Shown: positions 36,772 to 50,247 of the stretch, piece after piece | Position numbering within the stretch: the first letter of the stretch is position 1 | How the letters are laid out: every line of letters starts with the position of its first letter | Assembly: GCF_030389965.1 (NCBI RefSeq) | Contig: NZ_CP128399.1 | Span: forward strand, 2,346,934-2,410,933 | From: Candidatus Chlorohelix allophototropha | Lineage (GTDB): Bacteria; Chloroflexota; Chloroflexia; Chloroheliales; Chloroheliaceae | Length of the DNA: 64,000 nucleotides | Direction of reading: 5' to 3' | Notes under the pieces: model-generated | Told to the model about the DNA's origin: nothing | What the model saw: only the letters and a program-made list of their open reading frames with translations | Databases searched by the model: none | Made by a program: the position numbers and the translations under genes

Positions 36772-37209
36772 TTAATTATGGCGAGGCTGGAAGATTAAAG
36801 AGCTATTGGAAACAAGTTGCACCAATAATATTAAGCTATCCATCCTAACTTCTAATTTCTTAACCATACGATGCTTTGGGCTTAGCTCTCTCGTCATAAT
36901 TTGTTTAAGAATTTCGCTAAGATTGGTGAGTTCGATTATAACCTGAGCGGTAAATTCAAAACTGGAAGTGGCAAGTTCGGAGTTATAAGAGGAGAAGTGG
37001 CGCCGGATTGAATCTATCAACCGCGCCACTTCTTTTCTGTCTCGATTTTGGATATATGCCAGCACTCCTGATAGGGCTATTTCGGCTCTTTCTGAAAGAG
37101 CCGTTTCACTTTCTATCTTTTGCCGTTGCTTAAGCAGTGCTTCTACCTGTTTGGAAATTATTTCCTCCCTATGATTTTGCAACTGCCTAATCAAAGATAC
37201 GTCCGGCAT
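36772..37209 (-). CDS. Hypothetical helical protein cotranscribed with rbcL
   Basis: 145 residues, all-helical by composition, with a start (LIRQLQNHREEIISKQVEALLK) similar to RsbRD-type four-helix regions and a C-terminal hydrophobic helix (SLILLVQLVSNSSLIF). It begins 20 bases after the rbcL stop on the same strand, so it should be expressed with RuBisCO. I do not recognise it as a known assembly factor such as RbcX, Raf1 or Acm2. Function unknown. Confidence 0.65.
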   Translation of the reverse strand: MPDVSLIRQLQNHREEIISKQVEALLKQRQKIESETALSERAEIALSGVLAYIQNRDRKEVARLIDSIRRHFSSYNSELATSSFEFTAQVIIELTNLSEILKQIMTRELSPKHRMVKKLEVRMDSLILLVQLVSNSSLIFQPRHN

Positions 37210-37229: not shown

Positions 37230-38705
<1,476 letters not shown>

Positions 38706-38882: not shown

Positions 38883-39563
38883 TCAAGCCGGTAGCGCTGT
38901 TTTGCATGCTGTCCGTAACTCGGCAACCGTCTCTCTAACTCCACGCTGCTTGTTAAACACAGCCGAACCTGCCACAATTACATTAGCGCCTGCTTCAACT
39001 ACTTCACGTATATTAGAAGCGTTAATGCCGCCATCAACTTCAAGTTCTACGTCGGGCTTTACCTTTGAGATTAGCTCCCAACAACGTCTGATTTTATCAA
39101 CAGAAGTTTTAATGAACGCTTGACCGCCAAAACCCGGGTTAACGCTCATAATTAAAACCAAGTCGATGTAGGGTAGAATTTCTTCCAGTACGGAAAGAGG
39201 AGTGGAGGGATTGAGCGATACACCTGCTCTGGCTCCGCAAGCATGTATTTGCTGTACAGTGCGATGCAGATGTGGGCAAGTTTCCGCATGTACAGTAATG
39301 ATATTGGAACCGGCTTTTGCAAAGCTCTCAATGTAACGTTCTGGCTTTTCGATCATCAAATGCGTGTCGAAGGTAGCAGTGGTAACTCCTCTAATCGCCT
39401 CTACAATCAGTGGTCCAATTGTAATATTAGGAACGAAATGCCCATCCATAACATCAATGTGAATATAATCTGCGCCTGCCTGTATTACCTCCTCAACTTG
39501 ACTGCCAAGTCGGGCAAAGTCGGCAGAGAGAATTGAAGGAGCTAACTTAAAACTATTGGGCAT
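38883..39563 (-). CDS. rpe: Ribulose-phosphate 3-epimerase
   Basis: 226 residues from the ATG at 39563, chosen over a GTG at 39572 because an AGAGG box fits it. Motifs [32 protein letters not shown] and VDGGI are complete. It interconverts ribulose and xylulose 5-phosphate, feeding phosphoribulokinase. It lies after gap but separated by 217 bases, so it may have its own promoter. Confidence 0.95.
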
Positions 39564-39690
39564 TGTAAGCACCTCTCGAACTTAATCAGGTAAAGCCAGC
39601 GTCATTGCCGTTGCCTGGCTATTTAAATTTTGGATAAGCCAAATGAGGTTTAGGCTGAGTTTTTATCTCGCGGAAGATATTCTATGAATT

Positions 39691-39780: not shown

Positions 39781-40884
39781 CTATAATGGCGGGCTTTCGG
39801 GAGCGAACCCACCCATTACTAGCGCTCTATCCAGACCTTCTTTCTCGACTGAATAGGTGCGATGAGGCGCTTCGGCATCTCCTTCGTGCGCTTGGATATA
39901 GGCAGCCAAATCTACGATACGGCTGGCGTAGCCCCATTCGTTGTCGTACCAAACCACTATTCTGGCAAGATTCTCACTCTCCATAATCGCGGTGCTGGCT
40001 CCGTCCACAACTCCAGAATGGCTATCACCTCTGAAATCGCTGGAAACAAGTTCAAGGTTGGTAAAGCCCATAATACCCTTTAACTCGCCTTCTGCGGCAT
40101 CCTGTAGCACTTTGTTAATCTCTTTAACGTTGGTTTTGCGTTCGAGATTTACTGCCAAATCCACCAACGAAACCGTCAGAGTTGGAACGCGATAAGACAT
40201 ACCGTTTAGTCGTCCCGCCAGAGCCGGTATTACTGTGCCTAACGCTTTGGTAGCGCCGGTAGAAGTAGGGATGATGTTAGCTGCCCCTGCTCTGGCACGT
40301 CGCGGATCTTTGTGGCTACGATCAAGGATACGCTGATCGTTGGTATATGAATGGATGGTGGACATCATTCCACTTCTGATTCCGAACTCGCGATGTAAGA
40401 CATTAGCTACAGGTGCGAGTGCGTTGGTGGTGCAGGATGCCGCCGAAACGATTTCGTGACTATCGGGATGGTAGTCGGTTTCGTTTACGCCCATTACAAT
40501 CGTGATATCTGCGCCATTACTAGGTGCGGTTATCAATACTCTTTCAGCCCCAGCCTGTATATGGGCGGCGGCTTTATCGGCATTGGTAAAAACACCAGTT
40601 GACTCGATTACTAGATCAACCCCATAATCCTTCCAGGGGATTTCCAGAGGATTGGTATGGGAGCTAATCTCGATTGGATGCCCATTGACAACAATTTTGT
40701 TATTTAATACTTCCACACGTCCTGCAAATGGCCCGTAAGTCGAGTCATATTGAAGCATGTGGGCATTAATATCAGCCTCGCCTCGATCATTAATTGCTAC
40801 TATATCGAGGTCAATGCCGCGAGCGATAGCGGATCGTATGATTAGTCGCCCGATCCGTCCAAAACCGTTAATTCCTATTCGCAT
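39781..40884 (-). CDS. gap: Glyceraldehyde-3-phosphate dehydrogenase
   Basis: 367 residues, somewhat longer than usual (about 335) through a C-terminal tail. GINGFGRIGR begins the Rossmann fold and SAASCTTNALAPV holds the catalytic cysteine. In the CBB cycle it reduces 1,3-bisphosphoglycerate. The AINDRGE segment keeps the aspartate that usually favours NAD, but cofactor use cannot be settled by eye. It follows the transketolase gene by 28 bases. Confidence 0.95.
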   Translation of the reverse strand: MRIGINGFGRIGRLIIRSAIARGIDLDIVAINDRGEADINAHMLQYDSTYGPFAGRVEVLNNKIVVNGHPIEISSHTNPLEIPWKDYGVDLVIESTGVFTNADKAAAHIQAGAERVLITAPSNGADITIVMGVNETDYHPDSHEIVSAASCTTNALAPVANVLHREFGIRSGMMSTIHSYTNDQRILDRSHKDPRRARAGAANIIPTSTGATKALGTVIPALAGRLNGMSYRVPTLTVSLVDLAVNLERKTNVKEINKVLQDAAEGELKGIMGFTNLELVSSDFRGDSHSGVVDGASTAIMESENLARIVVWYDNEWGYASRIVDLAAYIQAHEGDAEAPHRTYSVEKEGLDRALVMGGFAPESPPL

Positions 40885-40912: not shown

Positions 40913-42943
40913 TTATTTTTTTACCAATTCAAGAGCTTTTGCTACAACATTGTCCGGAGTGAAACCGAACTCACGCAACAGTACTTTATATGGAGCAGAT
41001 GCTCCAAAATGTTCTAAGCTGATAACTTCCCCATCAATTCCGACGAAGCGTTCCCAGCCCTGCGCAATAGCTGTTTCCACTGCAAGACGCGACCTGATCG
41101 CAGAAGGCAAAATAGCTTCGCGATACTCTTTGGTTTGTGCCAAAAATAACTCCATGCTGAGCATTGATACAACTCGTGTCGAGATGCCCTGTGCTTCCAG
41201 CAAGAGTCGTGCTTCAAGGCACAATGAAACTTCCGAACCGCTACCTAGCAGGATTAGTTCGGGATTACCGTTGTTGGCATCTGCCACTACATAAGCACCC
41301 TGTTCTGCCGTTCCCGGTCCGGTTGCTTTAGCGGCTACCGGAAGATTCTGGCGACTGAGTATTATTGTAGATGGTCCGTTCTTTCGCTTCAAAGCAATCC
41401 GCCATGCTTCGATTGTTTCGTTTGCATCTGCCGGACGCAAAACCACCAAATTGGGTATTGCGCGTAACGCAGCGATTTGTTCAATCGGCTGGTGGGTAGG
41501 CCCATCCTCACCCAACCCGATGCTATCGTGGGTGAAAATATATATTACGGGCTGATGCATCAGGGCGGAAAGCCTTATCGCCGGGCGAACATAGTCTGAG
41601 AATATCAAGAAGGTTGCGCCATAAGGACGTAAACCTCCATATAAAGACATTCCATTTAATGCCGCGCCCATCCCAAATTCACGTATACCAAAGTGTAAAT
41701 TTCGCCCGCTGTAATCGCTAGAGCTATAATCACCAAAACCTTTTAATTCCGTGTTATTGGAAGGAGCAAGGTCGGCTGAGCCACCCAGCAAAGCGGGCAG
41801 TTTCGGCGCTAAGGCGTTCAAAGCTTTGCCGGATGCTACGCGGGTAGCAACCTCGGTTCCGACAGCAAACTCAGGCAAATTCTCATCCCAACCATCCGGT
41901 AGAGCGCCTGATAACAGCGCGTTCCATTCGGCGCTAAGATCAGGATATTCTTGCGAATATGTAGTTAGCTTTGCCAGCCACTCAGCCTGCAATTGTGCGC
42001 CTTTCCCGACTGCCTGCCTGAAAAATGCCAGAGCTTCATCAGGTACAAAGAATGGCTCAGTTGAAGGGTAGCCTAACGCTTGTTTGGTTAGTTTAACTTC
42101 TTCCTCGCCCAAAGGTGCGCCATGAGATTCATGGCTACCATGTTTATTCGGGCTACCATATCCAATTTCAGTGCGTACTGCAATTAGCGTAGGGCGATCT
42201 TCGACTGATTGTGCTTCAATAACAGCACGATCAATTGCTTCAAGGTCGTTACCATCTGAAACACGTCCCACATGCCAACCGTAGCTCTCGAAGCGTGCCA
42301 GCACATCCTCACTGCTGGAAACTTCTATGTCACCCTCGATGGTAATATGGTTATCATCCCAAAGACAGATCAACTTGCCCAACTTCAGATGCCCTGCAAG
42401 CGAACCGGCTTCGTGCGAGATGCCTTCCATCAGGTCACCATCAGAGCAAATCACATAGGTATAGTGATCTACCAGAGTGTTTCCTTCTCGGTTGAAACGC
42501 GCAGCTTTCCAACGCTCCGCCATTGCCATACCGACTGCTGTTGCCAGACCCTGCCCAAGTGGACCGGTTGTGGTTTCAACTCCGGCGGTAAGCCCATACT
42601 CCGGGTGACCGGGAGTAAGACTTCCCCATTGCCTGAAGGCTTTTAGCTGTTCGAGTGGTAAATCGAAACCATTCAGGTACAACAGGCTATATAATAACAT
42701 AGATGCGTGTCCGGCAGATAGTACAAACCTATCCCGATTAGGCCACTGCGGGTCAGCAGGATTATAGCGCATATGTTTGGTCCAAAGCACGTATGCCATG
42801 GGAGCCATACCTAAAGGGGCGCCGGGGTGCCCGGAATTTGCCTTTTGCACCCCATCGATAGCCAACGCTCTGATTGTGTTTACACACAAATCCTCAAAAG
42901 CGCTGTTTTTCGTTACTTGGCTTACCTGTTCGGATACGCTCAT
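40913..42943 (-). CDS. tkt: Transketolase
   Basis: 676 residues, full length for the family. [17 protein letters not shown], the thiamine diphosphate motif [13 protein letters not shown] and the central [14 protein letters not shown] are present. It moves two-carbon units between sugar phosphates in the regeneration phase of the cycle. Its start overlaps the prk stop by 4 bases, so the two are translationally coupled. Confidence 0.96.
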
Positions 42944-43917
42944 CTAGCGAAACCTCCAACCGGCAAAGGACCGGAACCAGGCTTGGCGCCGGGATTGCGT
43001 GCTCTCAACAGGTGATAAACTAGGAACAATTGGGTTAAGGCAAGAGGGTGACTACGGCGGGTAACTAGACCAGCGGTATATTGACCCAATTCCTCTTCCA
43101 AATTATGTCCGGTCAGATGGAGTTCATCAATGATATAGCGCTCTAGTTTCAGAGCTTTTTCTTCGGTGATAAATCCAAAAATATCAACAAACTCGGCGAC
43201 TTTTCCGCTCTCACGACCCATAGACAGACGCACACCACCGGAGCCATCAGGGCGAGTTACAACCTTGCTAAAATCAGGGTGCTGCAAGTTACCAGTCATG
43301 GTGAGCTTCACATTTAAGAAGGAATCTGAGCCACCTTCATTATTCGGGTCAGGGTAAAAGCGCACAATGGTATCGGCAAAGGCTCTCTGTGGGCGAATAA
43401 ACTCTTGTGAATCTGGCTCACGTTTATCTAGGTCTGCCAACACTGCTTCTTCGGTATAACCACGCTTGGTGGTATCGCGGGTTATCTTCCAACGCCGTCG
43501 CAAATCTTCAGATGGATCTAGGAAGAGGCGAATATCAAACACATCGCGCATCTCTTTGGTGTAATAGGCAAGCAAGCCGTCAATAATGACGTACTCGGCG
43601 GGCTGGATATAGACAGGTGGGTCAAAATCACCACGGCTGTGATTATAAACCGGCTTAAGGATCGGCTTACCTTCTTTGAGCAGTTTCAAATGCTGCTCCA
43701 TAATATCCATATAGTTGCAATCGGGGTGTAATGGAGTCAAATCCACGACCTTGCGCTGCTGGCGATTGTATTTGTGGTAGTCATCCACGCAGATAACCGT
43801 CACTCGCTCAGGACCTAACAATTGCTCAATACCCTGAGTAAGGGTAGTTTTGCCGGTTGCACTATCACCTACAACCCCTAACATTACCGGTCTTTTTGTT
43901 GAAACATCCAATTCCAT
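42940..43917 (-). CDS. prk: Phosphoribulokinase
   Basis: 325 residues. The Walker A loop GDSATGKTT begins at residue 17, and [13 protein letters not shown] and [11 protein letters not shown] are typical of the cyanobacterial/plant-like class rather than the short proteobacterial one. It phosphorylates ribulose 5-phosphate, the step unique to the CBB cycle. It lies between the glpX-like gene (18 bases) and tkt (4-base overlap). Confidence 0.95.
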
Positions 43918-43935: not shown

Positions 43936-44967
43936 TTATCCAATTACAAACCCGGATGGGTCTTCGACCACAGTTACCGGATTATTTGAGACTAATTGCC
44001 ATAACCTATTCCAGTTATGTTCGGTTTTGATGTGCTTTAAATTCACATCAGTACCAGAACTAAGCATCAATGAATGCGTGAATGCCCCGCTGCCTCTATA
44101 TTTTACTCCTGCAAGTAGTACGCTATCGGTTATACCTGTAGCTGCAAAATATAATTCTTGTCCCTGTACCAAAGTATCGAGATCTAGAATTCTTTCTAGA
44201 TCAATGTTGGCATCAATTGCATGTGTGTATTCTACCGGATTTTGTGGAGCTAGACGCGCCAGCATTTCCCCGCCCATCGCTTTGAGAGCACAGGCACTGA
44301 TGAGAGTTCCGGTAGAACTGGCAATACCTGCCAACATATCGATCCCATAACCGCGTAATCCCACTAGCAAGCCCAATTTGATTTCACCTTCGTCAAAAAG
44401 GATTACTTTAGCGCCAAGAGATCTTACGGTTTCAATCGTAGTCCGATTAAATTGCTTGTTAAGGATGGCTACGTTTAAGGCTGAAATTTCCTTACCAAGC
44501 TTTTCAGCTACCTTATTAAGATTTGTTGCCAAAGAAGCATTAAGATTAATTACCCCTTTGGCAGCAGCCCCTACTGCTAACCGTTCTATATTTTGTACTG
44601 GATTAGTAGAGAAAAGACTGTTTTTCCCTGCCAAAGCTGCTACCGAAATGGCATTAGGCATACCTTTTGCCAGTGCTTCCATACTTTCGAGTGGAAGAAT
44701 GATAAGGTCTTTTTCGGTGCTACCAGCTACCCCAATTTTCCGATTAGTATTCGAATAGCTACTATTTTCGGGGGTTAGCACTACCATATTTTCAATTGCC
44801 AGCTTTTCGAGGGAACGAAACATTTCTTCGGTCGCAGCCTGATAAGCTGCGTCTGCATTCCCTCTTCCAAACCACCTAGACGCTTCAAGGGCAGCCATTT
44901 CGGTAACCTTTACCAACTCCAAACCTAAGTGGTTAGTTCGATTATTTGCCCTGAAAGCGTTTGTCAT
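43936..44967 (-). CDS. GlpX-family protein lacking the known metal ligands (possible pseudoenzyme)
   Basis: 343 residues that align almost without gaps to class II fructose-1,6-bisphosphatase GlpX across most of its length (FGRGNADAA; LAKGMPNAISV; AATGITDS). Yet each metal ligand of E. coli GlpX is changed: Asp33 to Tyr42, Glu57 to Pro66 (GEGE became TPEN), Asp85 to Leu (DPIEGT became LPLESM) and Glu213 to Gly. The fold should remain but phosphatase activity by the usual mechanism looks unlikely. Its start overlaps the aldolase stop by 4 bases, so it is made with the cycle enzymes. It may be regulatory or structural, or may have a new activity. Confidence 0.8.
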   Translation of the reverse strand: MTNAFRANNRTNHLGLELVKVTEMAALEASRWFGRGNADAAYQAATEEMFRSLEKLAIENMVVLTPENSSYSNTNRKIGVAGSTEKDLIILPLESMEALAKGMPNAISVAALAGKNSLFSTNPVQNIERLAVGAAAKGVINLNASLATNLNKVAEKLGKEISALNVAILNKQFNRTTIETVRSLGAKVILFDEGEIKLGLLVGLRGYGIDMLAGIASSTGTLISACALKAMGGEMLARLAPQNPVEYTHAIDANIDLERILDLDTLVQGQELYFAATGITDSVLLAGVKYRGSGAFTHSLMLSSGTDVNLKHIKTEHNWNRLWQLVSNNPVTVVEDPSGFVIG

Positions 44968-45974
44968 ACTGCAACTGCCTCTGTTTTATATGTTTTATGC
45001 CAACCTTCTGTAATAGGCAGGTTGGTGTAACGTTCATTCCAAGGTGTCGCCCGATAATTGGCTATAGCGTTCAAAATTCCCAAACGGCTTATAGCGGTAG
45101 TTTCTAGGAAGTTCTGCCGTTCCTCAGCAGTTTCTAGAGTCATACCTTCTTGCCAAATGGCGCGACCTACCAAAAACCCACTTGCGCCCTCTTCACAGGC
45201 AATCTCGACTAAGCGCTGGAAGGTATCGAAGTTTTCGGCTGCGCTGAGAATTACCCAAGGAACCGGAGAAATTGCAGTCAACTCGCGGCAATAAGCCCGC
45301 ATCTTGCTCTCATCTTTTTCAAAATGTGGGTCAGAAGGAAACTCAGCTTTCAATAAATCGATACCTAAGCCAGACAAGCGGCGGGCTGATTCGAGCACAA
45401 CTTGCGGCTTGTCAGCGGCAAATTCAGCCGATTCCTTTTTCTGTCCTTTAATTATTGGATAAGACATCGGCTCAAGTAAGAGAGCGATGTCGTGCTGGCG
45501 GCATTCTTCGGCTACTCTAACCACTAATTCTTCTTGTTGAGCGGCTACTGACGAATTCGGGTGATAATAAAGCAACAACTTTACTGCGGCTGCTCCCATA
45601 CTCTTGATTTTTGGTATGCTCCAGCCTTCGGTAATCGGGGTAATACGGGCTTCATCCGTGCCTTCATAGCCCGATTCTTCCAATGAGACAAGCAACCCGA
45701 TGTTACCAGGAAGCGCACCGGAAGCAACTATCTGGCTAGCTCCATACACAGGGTCAACGAGAATGGCGCTGGAATGAGGGGCAAAAACACGGGTCATTCG
45801 AAGCTTTTCGGTCACCACTTCATTGTAACCAACTTTGATATTCGGCATGGCAGCTTGAAGGGATTTTTTCAACGAGCCACGATGATCAATTGCGGTTACG
45901 GTAATGATGCCTTTTTCGTTAGACATCTGCTGCATTCCGCGAATTTTCCCAATGTATGTTGCACTGATACTCAT
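44964..45974 (-). CDS. Class I aldolase, DeoC/LacD family (tagatose/fructose-bisphosphate aldolase)
   Basis: 336 residues from the ATG at 45974, which has a GGAG box 8 bases upstream (a TTG at 45977 is less likely). AIDHRGSL, VKLLLYYHP and LLKAEFP match LacD-type aldolases; by analogy with LacD the lysine of LLKAEFP forms the Schiff base. As first gene of the cbb operon it probably makes fructose and sedoheptulose bisphosphates, a job usually done by a class II CbbA. The overlap with the next start suggests tight coupling. Confidence 0.82.
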   Translation of the reverse strand: MSISATYIGKIRGMQQMSNEKGIITVTAIDHRGSLKKSLQAAMPNIKVGYNEVVTEKLRMTRVFAPHSSAILVDPVYGASQIVASGALPGNIGLLVSLEESGYEGTDEARITPITEGWSIPKIKSMGAAAVKLLLYYHPNSSVAAQQEELVVRVAEECRQHDIALLLEPMSYPIIKGQKKESAEFAADKPQVVLESARRLSGLGIDLLKAEFPSDPHFEKDESKMRAYCRELTAISPVPWVILSAAENFDTFQRLVEIACEEGASGFLVGRAIWQEGMTLETAEERQNFLETTAISRLGILNAIANYRATPWNERYTNLPITEGWHKTYKTEAVAV

Positions 45975-46001
45975 CAACCATTCTCCTTAGTTTTCTGAAT
46001 T

Positions 46002-46171: not shown

Positions 46172-47071
46172 ATGAATTATACTTTGCATCAGTTAAAAGT
46201 TTTCTATACTGTTTCAAATTGTGGAAGCTATACAAAAGCGGCGCAACAACTGGGTTTACAGCAGCCAACCGTTTCTGAACAGGTCAGCACCCTTGAAAAA
46301 ACCTTCGGGCTTGATTTAATCGAGCGGATTCATGGCGGCTTGCGTCTTACCGATGCTGGAAAGGTTTTATACCAATCGGTGCAACATGTTCTCGGTGTAT
46401 CTGATGATTTAGGACGGATTGTAGAACAGCTACGTGGGCAAAGTACCGGAACTGTACGAGTTTGTGCGGATACAACTGTGGGCACAAGCGCTATACCCGA
46501 TGTTATCAGCAAGTTTCAACGATTACATTCTGGTATTCAAATAATTCTCGAAGTAGTAAATCGGGCTAAGGTAATTGAAAGACTCGAAGAAGGTAAGGTA
46601 GATCTGGCGGTTATGGGAAGACCACCCGACCTAAGAGGCTTGGAAGTGGAAATATTTTTACCGAATGAACTTCTCATGGTGGCTTCGGTGCGTCATCGTT
46701 TGGCATACCAGCTTAAATTGCCGCTCAGCGCAATTTCTGACGAGCGTTTTCTGGTGCGTGAAAGTGGCTCTGGTACTAGAACGGCGCTGATAGAATTACT
46801 TGAAACTGTGGGTATTAAACCTAAAATTGCAATGGTCTTGAGCCATAACGAAGCGATTAAGCAGGCAGTTATTGCCGATCTCGGAATTGCGCTAATGTCT
46901 CGGAATGTGCTTGAACAGGAACTCAAACTGGGTTTGATGACAATTCTCGACCTAGAAGGTTTGCCGATTATCCGACGCTGGCACGTTGTGTCGCCGCCGG
47001 GAAAACTGGTTTCTCCGGCTACGCGCGAGTTCAGGCAATTTTTAAAAAATTACCAGCCTAATTCAAAGTAG
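46172..47071 (+). CDS. cbbR: LysR-type regulator, CbbR-like (first of three)
   Basis: 299 residues. The N-terminal helix-turn-helix (LHQLKVFYTVSNCGSYTKAA) is followed by the effector domain with VRESGSGTR, a motif of the CbbR/CysB side of the family. It lies divergent to the cbb operon, the classical CbbR position, and should sense a cycle metabolite or NADPH. Its stop overlaps the next LysR gene tail to tail by 14 bases. Confidence 0.85.
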   Translation: MNYTLHQLKVFYTVSNCGSYTKAAQQLGLQQPTVSEQVSTLEKTFGLDLIERIHGGLRLTDAGKVLYQSVQHVLGVSDDLGRIVEQLRGQSTGTVRVCADTTVGTSAIPDVISKFQRLHSGIQIILEVVNRAKVIERLEEGKVDLAVMGRPPDLRGLEVEIFLPNELLMVASVRHRLAYQLKLPLSAISDERFLVRESGSGTRTALIELLETVGIKPKIAMVLSHNEAIKQAVIADLGIALMSRNVLEQELKLGLMTILDLEGLPIIRRWHVVSPPGKLVSPATREFRQFLKNYQPNSK

Positions 47072-47972
47072 AATTGAAAATTCTGCCCCAATCCAGCAGG
47101 TAATCTTTAAGTACAGTTGCTGCCAGAGAAAGTTTGCGACCCTCGCGGCAAGCAATACACCAGCGCCGTCTTATTGGGAAGCCTTGAACTTGGAGTACTT
47201 TAAGGCTACCAGCCGCTACCTCAACCTCGATAGCTTGCTTAGGAAGCACAGTAATACCCATTTCTACAGCAACGCCCCGCTTTATAGCTTCAATACTACC
47301 CAATTCTACTAAGGTTTTGAATTCTACACCCAGTTCCTTTAGTACATTTTCCACATCAAGGCGTGTGCCAGACCCACTTTCCCTGATCAAAAGCGGTTCT
47401 TCCGAAAGCTCCGGTAATTTATATTGTCGTTGAACTTTATGCAAGTGATACTCAGGAGAAGCTACTACCACCAATTCATTTGGTAGAAACGGTTCTATAG
47501 AAAGCTCGTTTGTATGCTCTACAATACCCATTACTGCCAAATCAGCTTGATTGTTCAATAGCTGACGCTCTACCTGATGTCGGTTATTGATTTCTAGAAA
47601 TAGTTCAATGTTAGGATAGCGCCGGTGATATTCACCCAATAAGGCAGGGACAATATAAATTCCAGCAGTGGTAGTGGCGGCTAACTGCACCGAACCGACC
47701 TTCATAGATTTAATATCAGTGACTACTTGATTGATAGAATCGTATTTTTCTAGGAATACAGTTACCTGTTCGTACAAAACTTGCCCTTCGGCAGTCAGAA
47801 TAACCCCCCGTCCATATCGCGTAAAGAGACTGAAGCCAAGATTTTTTTCCAAGCTGGCAATTTGAGCGGATAGGGCAGGCTGCGAAATAAATAACTCAGC
47901 AGCAGCGCGTGAGTAATTTTCGTATTTTGCTACGGTTAGGAACATTCGCAAATGGTGCAGATTGAATTCCAT
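47058..47972 (-). CDS. LysR-type regulator, CbbR-like (second of three)
   Basis: 304 residues with the usual winged helix (LHHLRMFLTVAKYENYSRAA) and IRESGSGTR in the effector domain. It begins 2 bases after the end of the third LysR gene and forms a two-gene transcript with it. It differs enough from its neighbours to be an old duplicate. Confidence 0.85.
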   Translation of the reverse strand: MEFNLHHLRMFLTVAKYENYSRAAAELFISQPALSAQIASLEKNLGFSLFTRYGRGVILTAEGQVLYEQVTVFLEKYDSINQVVTDIKSMKVGSVQLAATTTAGIYIVPALLGEYHRRYPNIELFLEINNRHQVERQLLNNQADLAVMGIVEHTNELSIEPFLPNELVVVASPEYHLHKVQRQYKLPELSEEPLLIRESGSGTRLDVENVLKELGVEFKTLVELGSIEAIKRGVAVEMGITVLPKQAIEVEVAAGSLKVLQVQGFPIRRRWCIACREGRKLSLAATVLKDYLLDWGRIFNSTLN

Positions 47973-47974
47973 CT

Positions 47975-48880
47975 TTATCCTCTCATAGATAAAGCCAACT
48001 CTAGAAAAGCGCGGGATGGCGGAGATAAGCGCTTTCGCTCAAGATGTACCAAATACCATTGTCGTTCTACCGGAAATCCTTGCACATCGAGTGTAACCAG
48101 TTTTCCGCTCGCTAATTCTAGTTCAAGAGTTGCCGAAGAAATGACCGCAACCCCAATTCCGGCGGCTACTGCCTGTTTTATCGCACCGTTATTACTAAGC
48201 TCCATTACTATTTGCATTCCTACCCCGTGCTGAGAAAAGATTTTTTCAGTGGAAGCACGTGTACCTGAGCCAGATTCTCGAACGATAAATGTTTCCTTGC
48301 TGAGTTCTTCTACAGGAATATCTTTGCGACCTGCCAAACGGTGTTCTGGATCGGCGATAACCACCAGTTTGTTCGAGCGTAAATGCAGGGCAGTCAGTTC
48401 TGGGGTCTCCAAAGTATGCCCCATAACCGCTAAATCAGCTTGATGCGAGAAAAGCTGATCTTGCACCGATGAACGGTTAACCACTTGCAAGCTAATTTTG
48501 ATTTGGGGATAACGGCGTTTAAATTCGCCTAAAATTGCAGGGACAATATAAACACCCGCCGTTGTATCAGCCGCGATTCGCAGCCTGCCGCGCTCCATCC
48601 CCTGTAACTCTTCGATCACCAGCATTGCTTCGTCCATCTGGTTTAGTATCTGACGCGCATAGCGATATAGCTCTTCACCGGCATCTGTCAGGCTGAATTT
48701 TCGCCCGGTCTGCTCAAAGAGGGACACGCCTCTTAAAGTATCCTCAAGTTTTTGAACTTGCATTGATACGCTTGGCTGGCTAAGGTATAATACATCTGCT
48801 GCTTTCGAAAAGCTTCGCTGCTCCACAACTGTAATAAATATAAACAATTGGTGTAGGGTGGGGTAATTTACTCTTTCCAT
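47975..48880 (-). CDS. LysR-type regulator, CbbR-like (third of three)
   Basis: 301 residues, N-terminal LHQLFIFITVVEQRSFSKAA and effector motif VRESGSGTR. It is divergent from rbcS across 127 bases, so it most likely controls rbcS-cbbX and itself. It is the first gene of a minus-strand pair with the second LysR gene. Confidence 0.85.
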   Translation of the reverse strand: MERVNYPTLHQLFIFITVVEQRSFSKAADVLYLSQPSVSMQVQKLEDTLRGVSLFEQTGRKFSLTDAGEELYRYARQILNQMDEAMLVIEELQGMERGRLRIAADTTAGVYIVPAILGEFKRRYPQIKISLQVVNRSSVQDQLFSHQADLAVMGHTLETPELTALHLRSNKLVVIADPEHRLAGRKDIPVEELSKETFIVRESGSGTRASTEKIFSQHGVGMQIVMELSNNGAIKQAVAAGIGVAVISSATLELELASGKLVTLDVQGFPVERQWYLVHLERKRLSPPSRAFLELALSMRG

Positions 48881-49007: not shown

Positions 49008-49316
49008 ATGAAGCTTGAAACTTTCTCTTACCTACCTCCTATGAATGAGGCGATGCTAAGAAGCCAGATCCAATATATGATCGATAAAGGCTATGCGCCT
49101 GCTATCGAGTATAGTGAGACTGTCGATACTTACAATAGCTATTGGAGCATGTGGGGCTTACCGATGTTCGAGATACGTGACGCGGCAGCGGTAGTTTATG
49201 AGCTTAAGGCTTGCCAGAAAGCCAATGACAATTGCTATATCAAGATTAATGGCTTTGATCCGTCAACACAGGCTCAAGCGATCAGTTTTGTTGCTTATAC
49301 GCCAAACAAGGGGTAG
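49008..49316 (+). CDS. cbbS: RuBisCO small subunit, short red-like form
   Basis: 102 residues. ETFSYLPPM, YWSMWGLPMFEIRDAAAV, YELKAC and YIKINGFD match RbcS, most closely the red-type (IC/ID) sequences. It ends at FVAYTPNKG, just where red-type subunits continue for about 30 residues into the beta E-beta F hairpin; the stop is followed 7 bases later by cbbX, so the extension was not simply lost to a frameshift. It completes the hexadecameric enzyme with the large subunit at 37230. AAAGGA lies upstream. Confidence 0.92.
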   Translation: MKLETFSYLPPMNEAMLRSQIQYMIDKGYAPAIEYSETVDTYNSYWSMWGLPMFEIRDAAAVVYELKACQKANDNCYIKINGFDPSTQAQAISFVAYTPNKG

Positions 49317-49323
49317 TAAATAA

Positions 49324-50247
49324 GTGGAATCAACGCTTCTGCAAAATGATGAAACCAACCAACCGCCCGAACAAGTAATGGTAGATCTGCCGCAATCCAA
49401 CCGTGACCGTCAGATTCACCGGATATTACAAGATTTTGATACCGGGATGATCGGGTTACAAGCTGTGAAAACCAGAATACGCGAGATTTCTGCATTCCTG
49501 TTAATAGATCGGATGCGTGAACAGGTTGGTTTAAATGCAGAACGCCCGGTGCTTCATATGAGCTTTACTGGCAGACCAGGCACCGGGAAAACCACTGTTG
49601 CCATGAAAATGGCGAGTATCCTTTATGAGTTGGGTTATATCAGGCGAAATCACGTAGTGGTTGTTACTCGCGATGACTTAGTAGGTCAGTATGTTGGACA
49701 TACCGCTCCCAAAACTAAAGATGTTCTCAAAAAAGCAATGGGCGGGGTATTGTTCATCGATGAAGCTTATTATCTTTATCGACGGGAAAATGAAAGAGAC
49801 TACGGTCAGGAAGCCATCGAAGTTTTATTGCAGGTGATGGAAAATCAACGCGATGATTTGGTGGTTATTATGGCAGGGTACAAAGACCGGATGGCTGAGT
49901 TTTTCGCATCAAATCCGGGAGTACGCTCACGTATATCCCATCACATTGATTTCCCTGATTATAACCTTGATGAGCTAATGCAAATCTCAGATTTAATGCT
50001 CAAACAGCAGATGTATTATCTAGATTCTGCGGCAGTTGAACCTTATCGGCAGCTGGTAGCATCTCAAATGGAGTTAGCCCATTTCTCCAATGCTCGTACA
50101 ATCAGAAATTTGATTGACCTGCTAAAACTTCGACATGCCAACCGCCTGTTCATTGCAAACAAATCGGTTACTAAGGATGATCTGGCTAGATTGGATTTGC
50201 CTGATATCCCGAACGAGAGCTTAATTGAAACAGGTTCGGACAATTAA
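49324..50247 (+). CDS. cbbX: RuBisCO activase CbbX (AAA+)
   Basis: 307 residues from a GTG start preceded by a purine-rich GGGG box. The AAA+ core has Walker A GRPGTGKTT (83-91), Walker B VLFIDEAY (142-149), an RSRI arginine finger and the GQYVGHT pore loop of CbbX. It frees inhibited red-type RuBisCO by pulling on the large-subunit C-terminus with ATP. It follows rbcS by 7 bases. Its presence supports a red-like RuBisCO. Confidence 0.94.
   Translation: MESTLLQNDETNQPPEQVMVDLPQSNRDRQIHRILQDFDTGMIGLQAVKTRIREISAFLLIDRMREQVGLNAERPVLHMSFTGRPGTGKTTVAMKMASILYELGYIRRNHVVVVTRDDLVGQYVGHTAPKTKDVLKKAMGGVLFIDEAYYLYRRENERDYGQEAIEVLLQVMENQRDDLVVIMAGYKDRMAEFFASNPGVRSRISHHIDFPDYNLDELMQISDLMLKQQMYYLDSAAVEPYRQLVASQMELAHFSNARTIRNLIDLLKLRHANRLFIANKSVTKDDLARLDLPDIPNESLIETGSDN

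Follow-up and report, generated by a model that had tools for sequence, protein, structure and literature searches.

The CBB operon of 'Candidatus Chlorohelix allophototropha' L227-S17 contains a gene of the GlpX family whose product, here called GlpX*, has lost nearly all of its catalytic residues, although the protein is well preserved in other respects. Judged from the alignments, this loss is real, selective and at an unexpected place. GlpX* is a pseudoenzyme by the usual definition as far as its residues tell, i.e. the product of an intact gene and a homologue without the conserved catalytic motifs. The best explanation, to which we give an even chance, is that it keeps the fold but not the known hydrolytic mechanism and serves as a non-catalytic subunit, with the intact GlpX of the same cell as the most likely partner.

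The window, i.e. the whole 64-kb stretch analyzed, comprises positions 2,346,934-2,410,933 of a contig of 2,961,161 bases, in a genome of 6.09 Mb and five contigs. Five circular replicons have been reported for this strain, with a chromosome 1 of 2.96 Mb (PMC10972752). The operon is on the minus strand and begins with a LacD-type class I aldolase gene (44964..45977; profile matches and motif reading). Next come glpX* (43936..44967, 343 aa), prk for phosphoribulokinase (42940..43917; profile matches) and tkt for transketolase (40913..42943; Pfam match). They are followed by gap for glyceraldehyde-3-phosphate dehydrogenase (39781..40884) and rpe for ribulose-phosphate 3-epimerase (38883..39572), both named by sequence and by matching genes of other CBB clusters, and by rbcL for the large subunit of form I Rubisco (37230..38690; profile matches). 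The stop of the aldolase gene and the start of glpX* share 4 bp (ATGA), which bears out the coupling of the two genes mentioned in the preliminary description. Between the end of glpX* and the start of prk there are 18 bp, which hold a stretch resembling a ribosome site, GGAAAGGGG. GlpX* is presumably co-expressed with the aldolase, phosphoribulokinase and the Rubisco large subunit.

Directly 3′ of rbcL there is a 145-aa ORF (36772-37209, minus strand) that had no NCBIfam match. On the other side of the operon, profile matches identified three CbbR-like regulator genes of the LysR family (46172..48880; one on the plus strand, two on the minus strand), and beyond them are rbcS and cbbX (49008..50247), on the plus strand and so opposite to the operon. 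The rbcS gene (49008-49316) is therefore about 10 kb from rbcL, on the other strand and with the three LysR genes in between. In most of the other Chloroflexota clusters examined, unlike here, rbcL and rbcS are adjacent.

GlpX* is a full-length GlpX homologue and belongs to the PF03320 fold family. It matched Pfam PF03320 (FBPase_glpX) with 268.8 bits against a gathering score of 27, its residues 13-317 aligning with positions 2-307 of the 307 in the profile. Against NCBIfam TIGR00330, the equivalog model of class II FBPase, it scored 189.2 bits, under the cut-off of 259.3; the intact GlpX of the same genome scored 382.2 bits. Taken with the sequence at its metal ligands, Thr90 and substrate site, this score places GlpX* outside class II FBPase. 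The fold model suggested in the preliminary description, an AlphaFold prediction from a homologue alignment of mostly canonical or near-canonical GlpX proteins, had the GlpX fold with a mean pLDDT of 87.4 and a pTM of 0.86. The core had a pLDDT near 97, and residues 61-80, the loop of Glu57, a mean of about 58-62. The best match among solved structures was 7txb (VIA Z 43.3). The closest ones were all GlpX enzymes (Z 36.4-43.3, rmsd 1.4-3.6 Å), and inositol monophosphatases were far below them (Z 12.9). GlpX* is thus like the class II FBPases and bifunctional F/SBPases (GlpX; PDB 3d1r, 6ayu, 3roj, 5a5l) in whole-chain fold and length, but it has other residues in place of the catalytic Thr, of four metal ligands, and of Tyr119 and Arg166.

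The catalytic site of the Mycobacterium tuberculosis enzyme consists of Asp27, Glu51, Asp79, Asp82, Thr84, Tyr114, Arg159, Arg161, Asp183 and Glu208 (PMC5892879). The Escherichia coli equivalents, in the same order, are Asp33, Glu57, Asp85, Glu88, Thr90, Tyr119, Lys164, Arg166, Asp188 and Glu213, for which the corresponding residues in GlpX* are Y, P, L, E, M, N, K, F, E and G. Seven of the ten are lost, one is changed conservatively (D188 to Glu) and only two (E88 and K164) are identical. These losses were read from phmmer comparisons with the GlpX chains in PDB, from a MAFFT alignment and from a broader alignment. Following the minus strand, Tyr42 (44842..44844) occupies the slot of metal ligand Asp33. 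TPEN (aa 65-68; 44764..44775) stands for GEGE, with Pro66 in the Glu57 slot, in a loop of low confidence in the alignments and model. LPLESM (aa 91-96; 44680..44697) stands for DPIEGT, with Asp85 replaced by Leu91, Thr90 by Met96, and Glu88 retained as E94. Asn126 (44590..44592) is found in the slot of substrate-site Tyr119, and KQF (aa 171-173; 44449..44457) replaces K/R-P-R (164-166), the substrate phosphate site (PMC10289334), R166 having become F173. Further on, EGE (aa 193-195; 44383..44391) replaces DGD (186-188), and Gly220 (44308..44310) takes the place of metal ligand Glu213. In addition, K29 became A38 and D61 is lost.

All three comparisons agreed with the four ligand changes first described (Asp33 to Tyr, Glu57 to Pro, Asp85 to Leu and Glu213 to Gly), with an uncertainty of one residue in the register of Glu57, and the two motif changes were as described. 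The Glu57 loop is the sole place of doubtful register: E67 of GlpX* is one residue off the slot, and some alignments have a gap there. The preliminary description went slightly too far in stating that every known metal ligand was lost; D33, E57, D85 and E213 are replaced, but E88 is retained as E94, and its M. tuberculosis counterpart, Asp82, binds Mg2+ (PMC5892879). If GlpX* were still an active bisphosphatase whose ligands had moved (to E67, E94, E193, E195 and others), it could make use of this metal-ligand position and of E67, which adjoins the slot of Glu57 in the loop whose register is uncertain. However, none of the residues that replace D33, D85, E213 and Thr90 is a usual ligand of Mg2+ or Mn2+, and the T84A mutant of the M. 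tuberculosis enzyme, altered at the position of Thr90, was inactive (PMC5892879), so we consider relocation extremely improbable. Because Thr90, both metal sites and the phosphate-site Arg are lost, hydrolysis by the known mechanism is very unlikely in GlpX*, and on these residues we are nearly certain that it does not take place.

We compared GlpX* with many GlpX proteins, as had been proposed. In a set of 110 (Chloroflexota plus E. coli), 74 had all ten catalytic residues, and GlpX* had the lowest score, 2/10. A GlpX gene in the CBB operon is common to this genome, Thermus, Meiothermus, Calditrichota and other Chloroflexota. When 14 GlpX genes in prk-containing clusters of other bacteria (Thermus, Meiothermus, Actinomycetota, Calditrichota) were scored, 13 had 10/10 and the remaining one had 9/10. 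Two Chloroflexaceae-like genomes have an operon of class II aldolase (named from sequence), glpX (10/10), rbcL, rbcS, cbbX, tkt, prk and rpe. By these sequences, the slot of glpX* beside the aldolase gene is a normal CBB slot, filled elsewhere by an enzyme with an intact site. Another Chloroflexota CBB cluster of similar layout (L096:11347-12387) had two glpX genes, one with 10/10 and one with D33N and D188F.

The preliminary description had also considered the gene to be conserved elsewhere, for which we found no support. No homologue of GlpX* above about 40% identity turned up in 158 genomes of the class, 400 genomes of the phylum or plasmids, nor in a scan for its peptides across 84,980 species, which required exact 8-mers and has low sensitivity under about 70% identity. 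Similarly, the literature searched yielded no GlpX-family pseudoenzyme.

The genome search for an intact FBPase/SBPase, likewise proposed, revealed one second GlpX (G000:C1:261391-262314; 463.3 bits) with all ten catalytic residues. It is about 32% identical to GlpX*, and the two genes are 2.1 Mb apart. By its sequence it is likely to be the FBPase/SBPase of the cell, which therefore need not rely on GlpX* for this activity. Neither class I FBPase (PF00316) nor FBPase_3 (PF01950) had a match in the genome, with positive controls, and compensation by another FBPase class was rejected on this result. The operon aldolase has the Glu and the Lys of the LacD motifs (LLEPMSYP and LLKAEFP), which we take to be its catalytic residues. 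As these are kept, only the phosphatase of the aldolase-phosphatase pair seems to have gone dead. The genome has four matches to the DeoC/LacD family, the operon aldolase included, and none to class II aldolase (PF01116). A search with PF00274 (class I aldolase) was uninformative, as its controls were also silent.

The gene was said to be intact and not an obvious pseudogene, and our results agree on both points. The tblastn comparison with five GlpX proteins returned one continuous open frame, without stop or frameshift; a frameshift or sequencing error was ruled out by this frame together with four separate loss sites with intact flanks. We then took the 94 alignment columns in which canonical GlpX proteins are conserved to 95% or more. 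GlpX* retains only 4 of the 31 invariant residues in active-site stretches and 41 of the 63 elsewhere (Fisher P = 2e-6, descriptive only, as the stretches were picked by us around the catalytic residues). Thus, as described, the catalytic and metal residues were lost on a retained GlpX framework, to which the structural match (Z 43) also testifies. Other divergent GlpX paralogues had no such bias toward the active site. When neutral drift of the frame was simulated with substitutions only, 0.2% of the copies were still open at 70% identity and none of 1000 at 60%. The concentration of losses at the active site, the intact frame and the translational coupling argue for a maintained pseudoenzyme.

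It might be argued that GlpX* is a relic, a former F/SBPase of the CBB operon that became redundant through the second GlpX and is drifting, its frame open by chance or through polarity on prk. Its very long branch, its occurrence in a single known genome and its GC3 of 0.358, the lowest among the operon genes, would fit, and stops in an operon gene can lower downstream expression, which would give some selection for openness alone. Against this, framework residues are selectively kept, the predicted fold has high confidence, the codon use is inside the range of the neighbors, and there are no stops at a divergence where neutral frames close. A relic is therefore improbable. Frame openness, residue bias and model together favour selection on the fold without catalysis; this falls short of proof because no orthologue is known and GlpX* is a singleton.

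GlpX* was not the only degenerate GlpX protein found. At 30 loci in the Chloroflexia (e.g. L047:2646-3647, L049:2646-3641 and L123:3943-4953) there are paralogues that have R, L, Q or V at the position of Thr90 and in which K29, E59 and D61 are mostly changed. Of these genes, 27 are directly downstream of a SulP-STAS-rhodanese gene. The SulP-linked paralogues retain most metal-site and phosphate-site residues (8-9/10) and score above or just under the FBPase cut-off of TIGR00330 in spite of having no catalytic threonine. They may regulate a transporter for sulfate or bicarbonate; the literature searched contained no paper on them. They share the GlpX fold and the replaced Thr90 with GlpX*, and a maximum-likelihood tree places both together. 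They differ from it in their 8-9/10 residues and SulP neighbor, GlpX* having 2/10 and the aldolase and prk genes as neighbors. The only SulP match in the genome of GlpX* is at C1:952958, not adjoining glpX*.

All four of the other genomes examined from the family of this organism also have a second GlpX paralogue, which has lost D33, D85 and T90 (L039:2756-3793, L040:2662-3720, L041:2782-3828 and L042:2689-3822). In the one locus whose neighbors were examined, these were genes with PI3/4-kinase-like and O-antigen-ligase-like domains. The three losses are common to GlpX*, but these paralogues have a separate origin, beside the housekeeping GlpX of the family, and keep E57, Tyr119 and other residues. 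An AU test rejected GlpX* as a recent duplicate of them (P = 0.004).

In a tree built without the catalytic columns, GlpX* was placed beside the SulP-linked clade with support of 95/86. After GlpX proteins of CBB operons were added, this grouping had 92/95 and both were near the Thermus-type CBB GlpX. The branch of GlpX* was very long in these trees, and without the SulP-linked clade its position was unsupported. AU tests did not reject a grouping of GlpX* with the intact GlpX from CBB operons of Chloroflexota (P = 0.15 and 0.32); a grouping with the housekeeping GlpX of its own family barely escaped rejection (P = 0.05 and 0.09). These trees give little backing to recent duplication of the housekeeping gene as the source. 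GlpX* may derive from a CBB-operon GlpX or from the SulP-linked clade; the placement with the clade is not firm.

Judging from its residues and its operon, GlpX* most likely serves the CBB cycle as a non-catalytic subunit or as a regulator, with a partner that we infer. Class II FBPases are 222 tetramers (PMC5892879), which could take in a dead paralogue, and the intact GlpX is for this reason the likeliest partner: GlpX* would enter its tetramers as a non-catalytic subunit and change their activity or their sensitivity to metabolites. Dead paralogues activate deoxyhypusine synthase (PMC3663545) and AdoMet decarboxylase (PMC5201418) in trypanosomes. Like GlpX*, the trypanosomatid DHSp and the AdoMetDC prozyme are dead paralogues beside an active member of the same oligomeric enzyme family; activation was measured there, whereas for GlpX* it is only proposed. 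Since the intact GlpX is so distant in sequence and in the genome, hetero-assembly with it is conjecture. GlpX* also has other residues at positions that line the central channel of the tetramer in the M. tuberculosis enzyme (Y279 to R, E301 to K and Y303 to E), changes that may speak against tetramers of mixed composition or a site for an AMP-type effector.

A homo-oligomer of GlpX* that binds a metabolite, the aldolase or phosphoribulokinase would be a close alternative, by our assessment nearly as likely as the mixed tetramer. In its strict form, GlpX* would act independently of the intact GlpX, either as a homotetramer binding a sugar phosphate or other metabolite without hydrolysis, or as a scaffold for aldolase and phosphoribulokinase. 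The tight coupling of glpX* to the genes of these two enzymes is consistent with it, as are E88, K164 and the acidic residues 193 and 195 still in the pocket, and the SulP-linked paralogues show that non-standard GlpX proteins are retained outside the FBPase role. However, the R-P-R phosphate site and Tyr119 are gone, which makes GlpX-like binding of sugar bisphosphates unlikely, and the partner is only postulated. This strict form seems to us possible, though doubtful. The preliminary description also raised a new activity, e.g. a phosphate-sugar reaction without the two-metal mechanism. The pocket was indeed replaced and not truncated, and some pseudoenzymes proved to have other activities (PMC10211241), but most of the new residues are neutral or hydrophobic ones (Y, P, L, M, N, F, G), and without close relatives no newly conserved set of polar residues is demonstrable. 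We regard a new activity as unlikely.

These findings bear on annotation. Pipelines based on Pfam would label glpX* as the FBPase/SBPase of the operon, although the enzyme at work is, almost surely, the intact GlpX encoded 2.1 Mb away. The SulP-linked paralogues, above or just under the FBPase cut-off without the catalytic Thr, present the same hazard. More tentatively, GlpX* may be a dedicated non-catalytic subunit for control of the Calvin cycle in Chloroflexota with type I reaction centres. It would then belong to a wider, unrecognised set of non-catalytic GlpX-fold sensors or regulators of carbon flux in the Chloroflexia, including the SulP-linked paralogues and those of its own family. 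Should GlpX* be produced and associate with a CBB enzyme, it would control the Calvin cycle at an unusual level, and this in a lineage relevant to the origin of photosynthesis.
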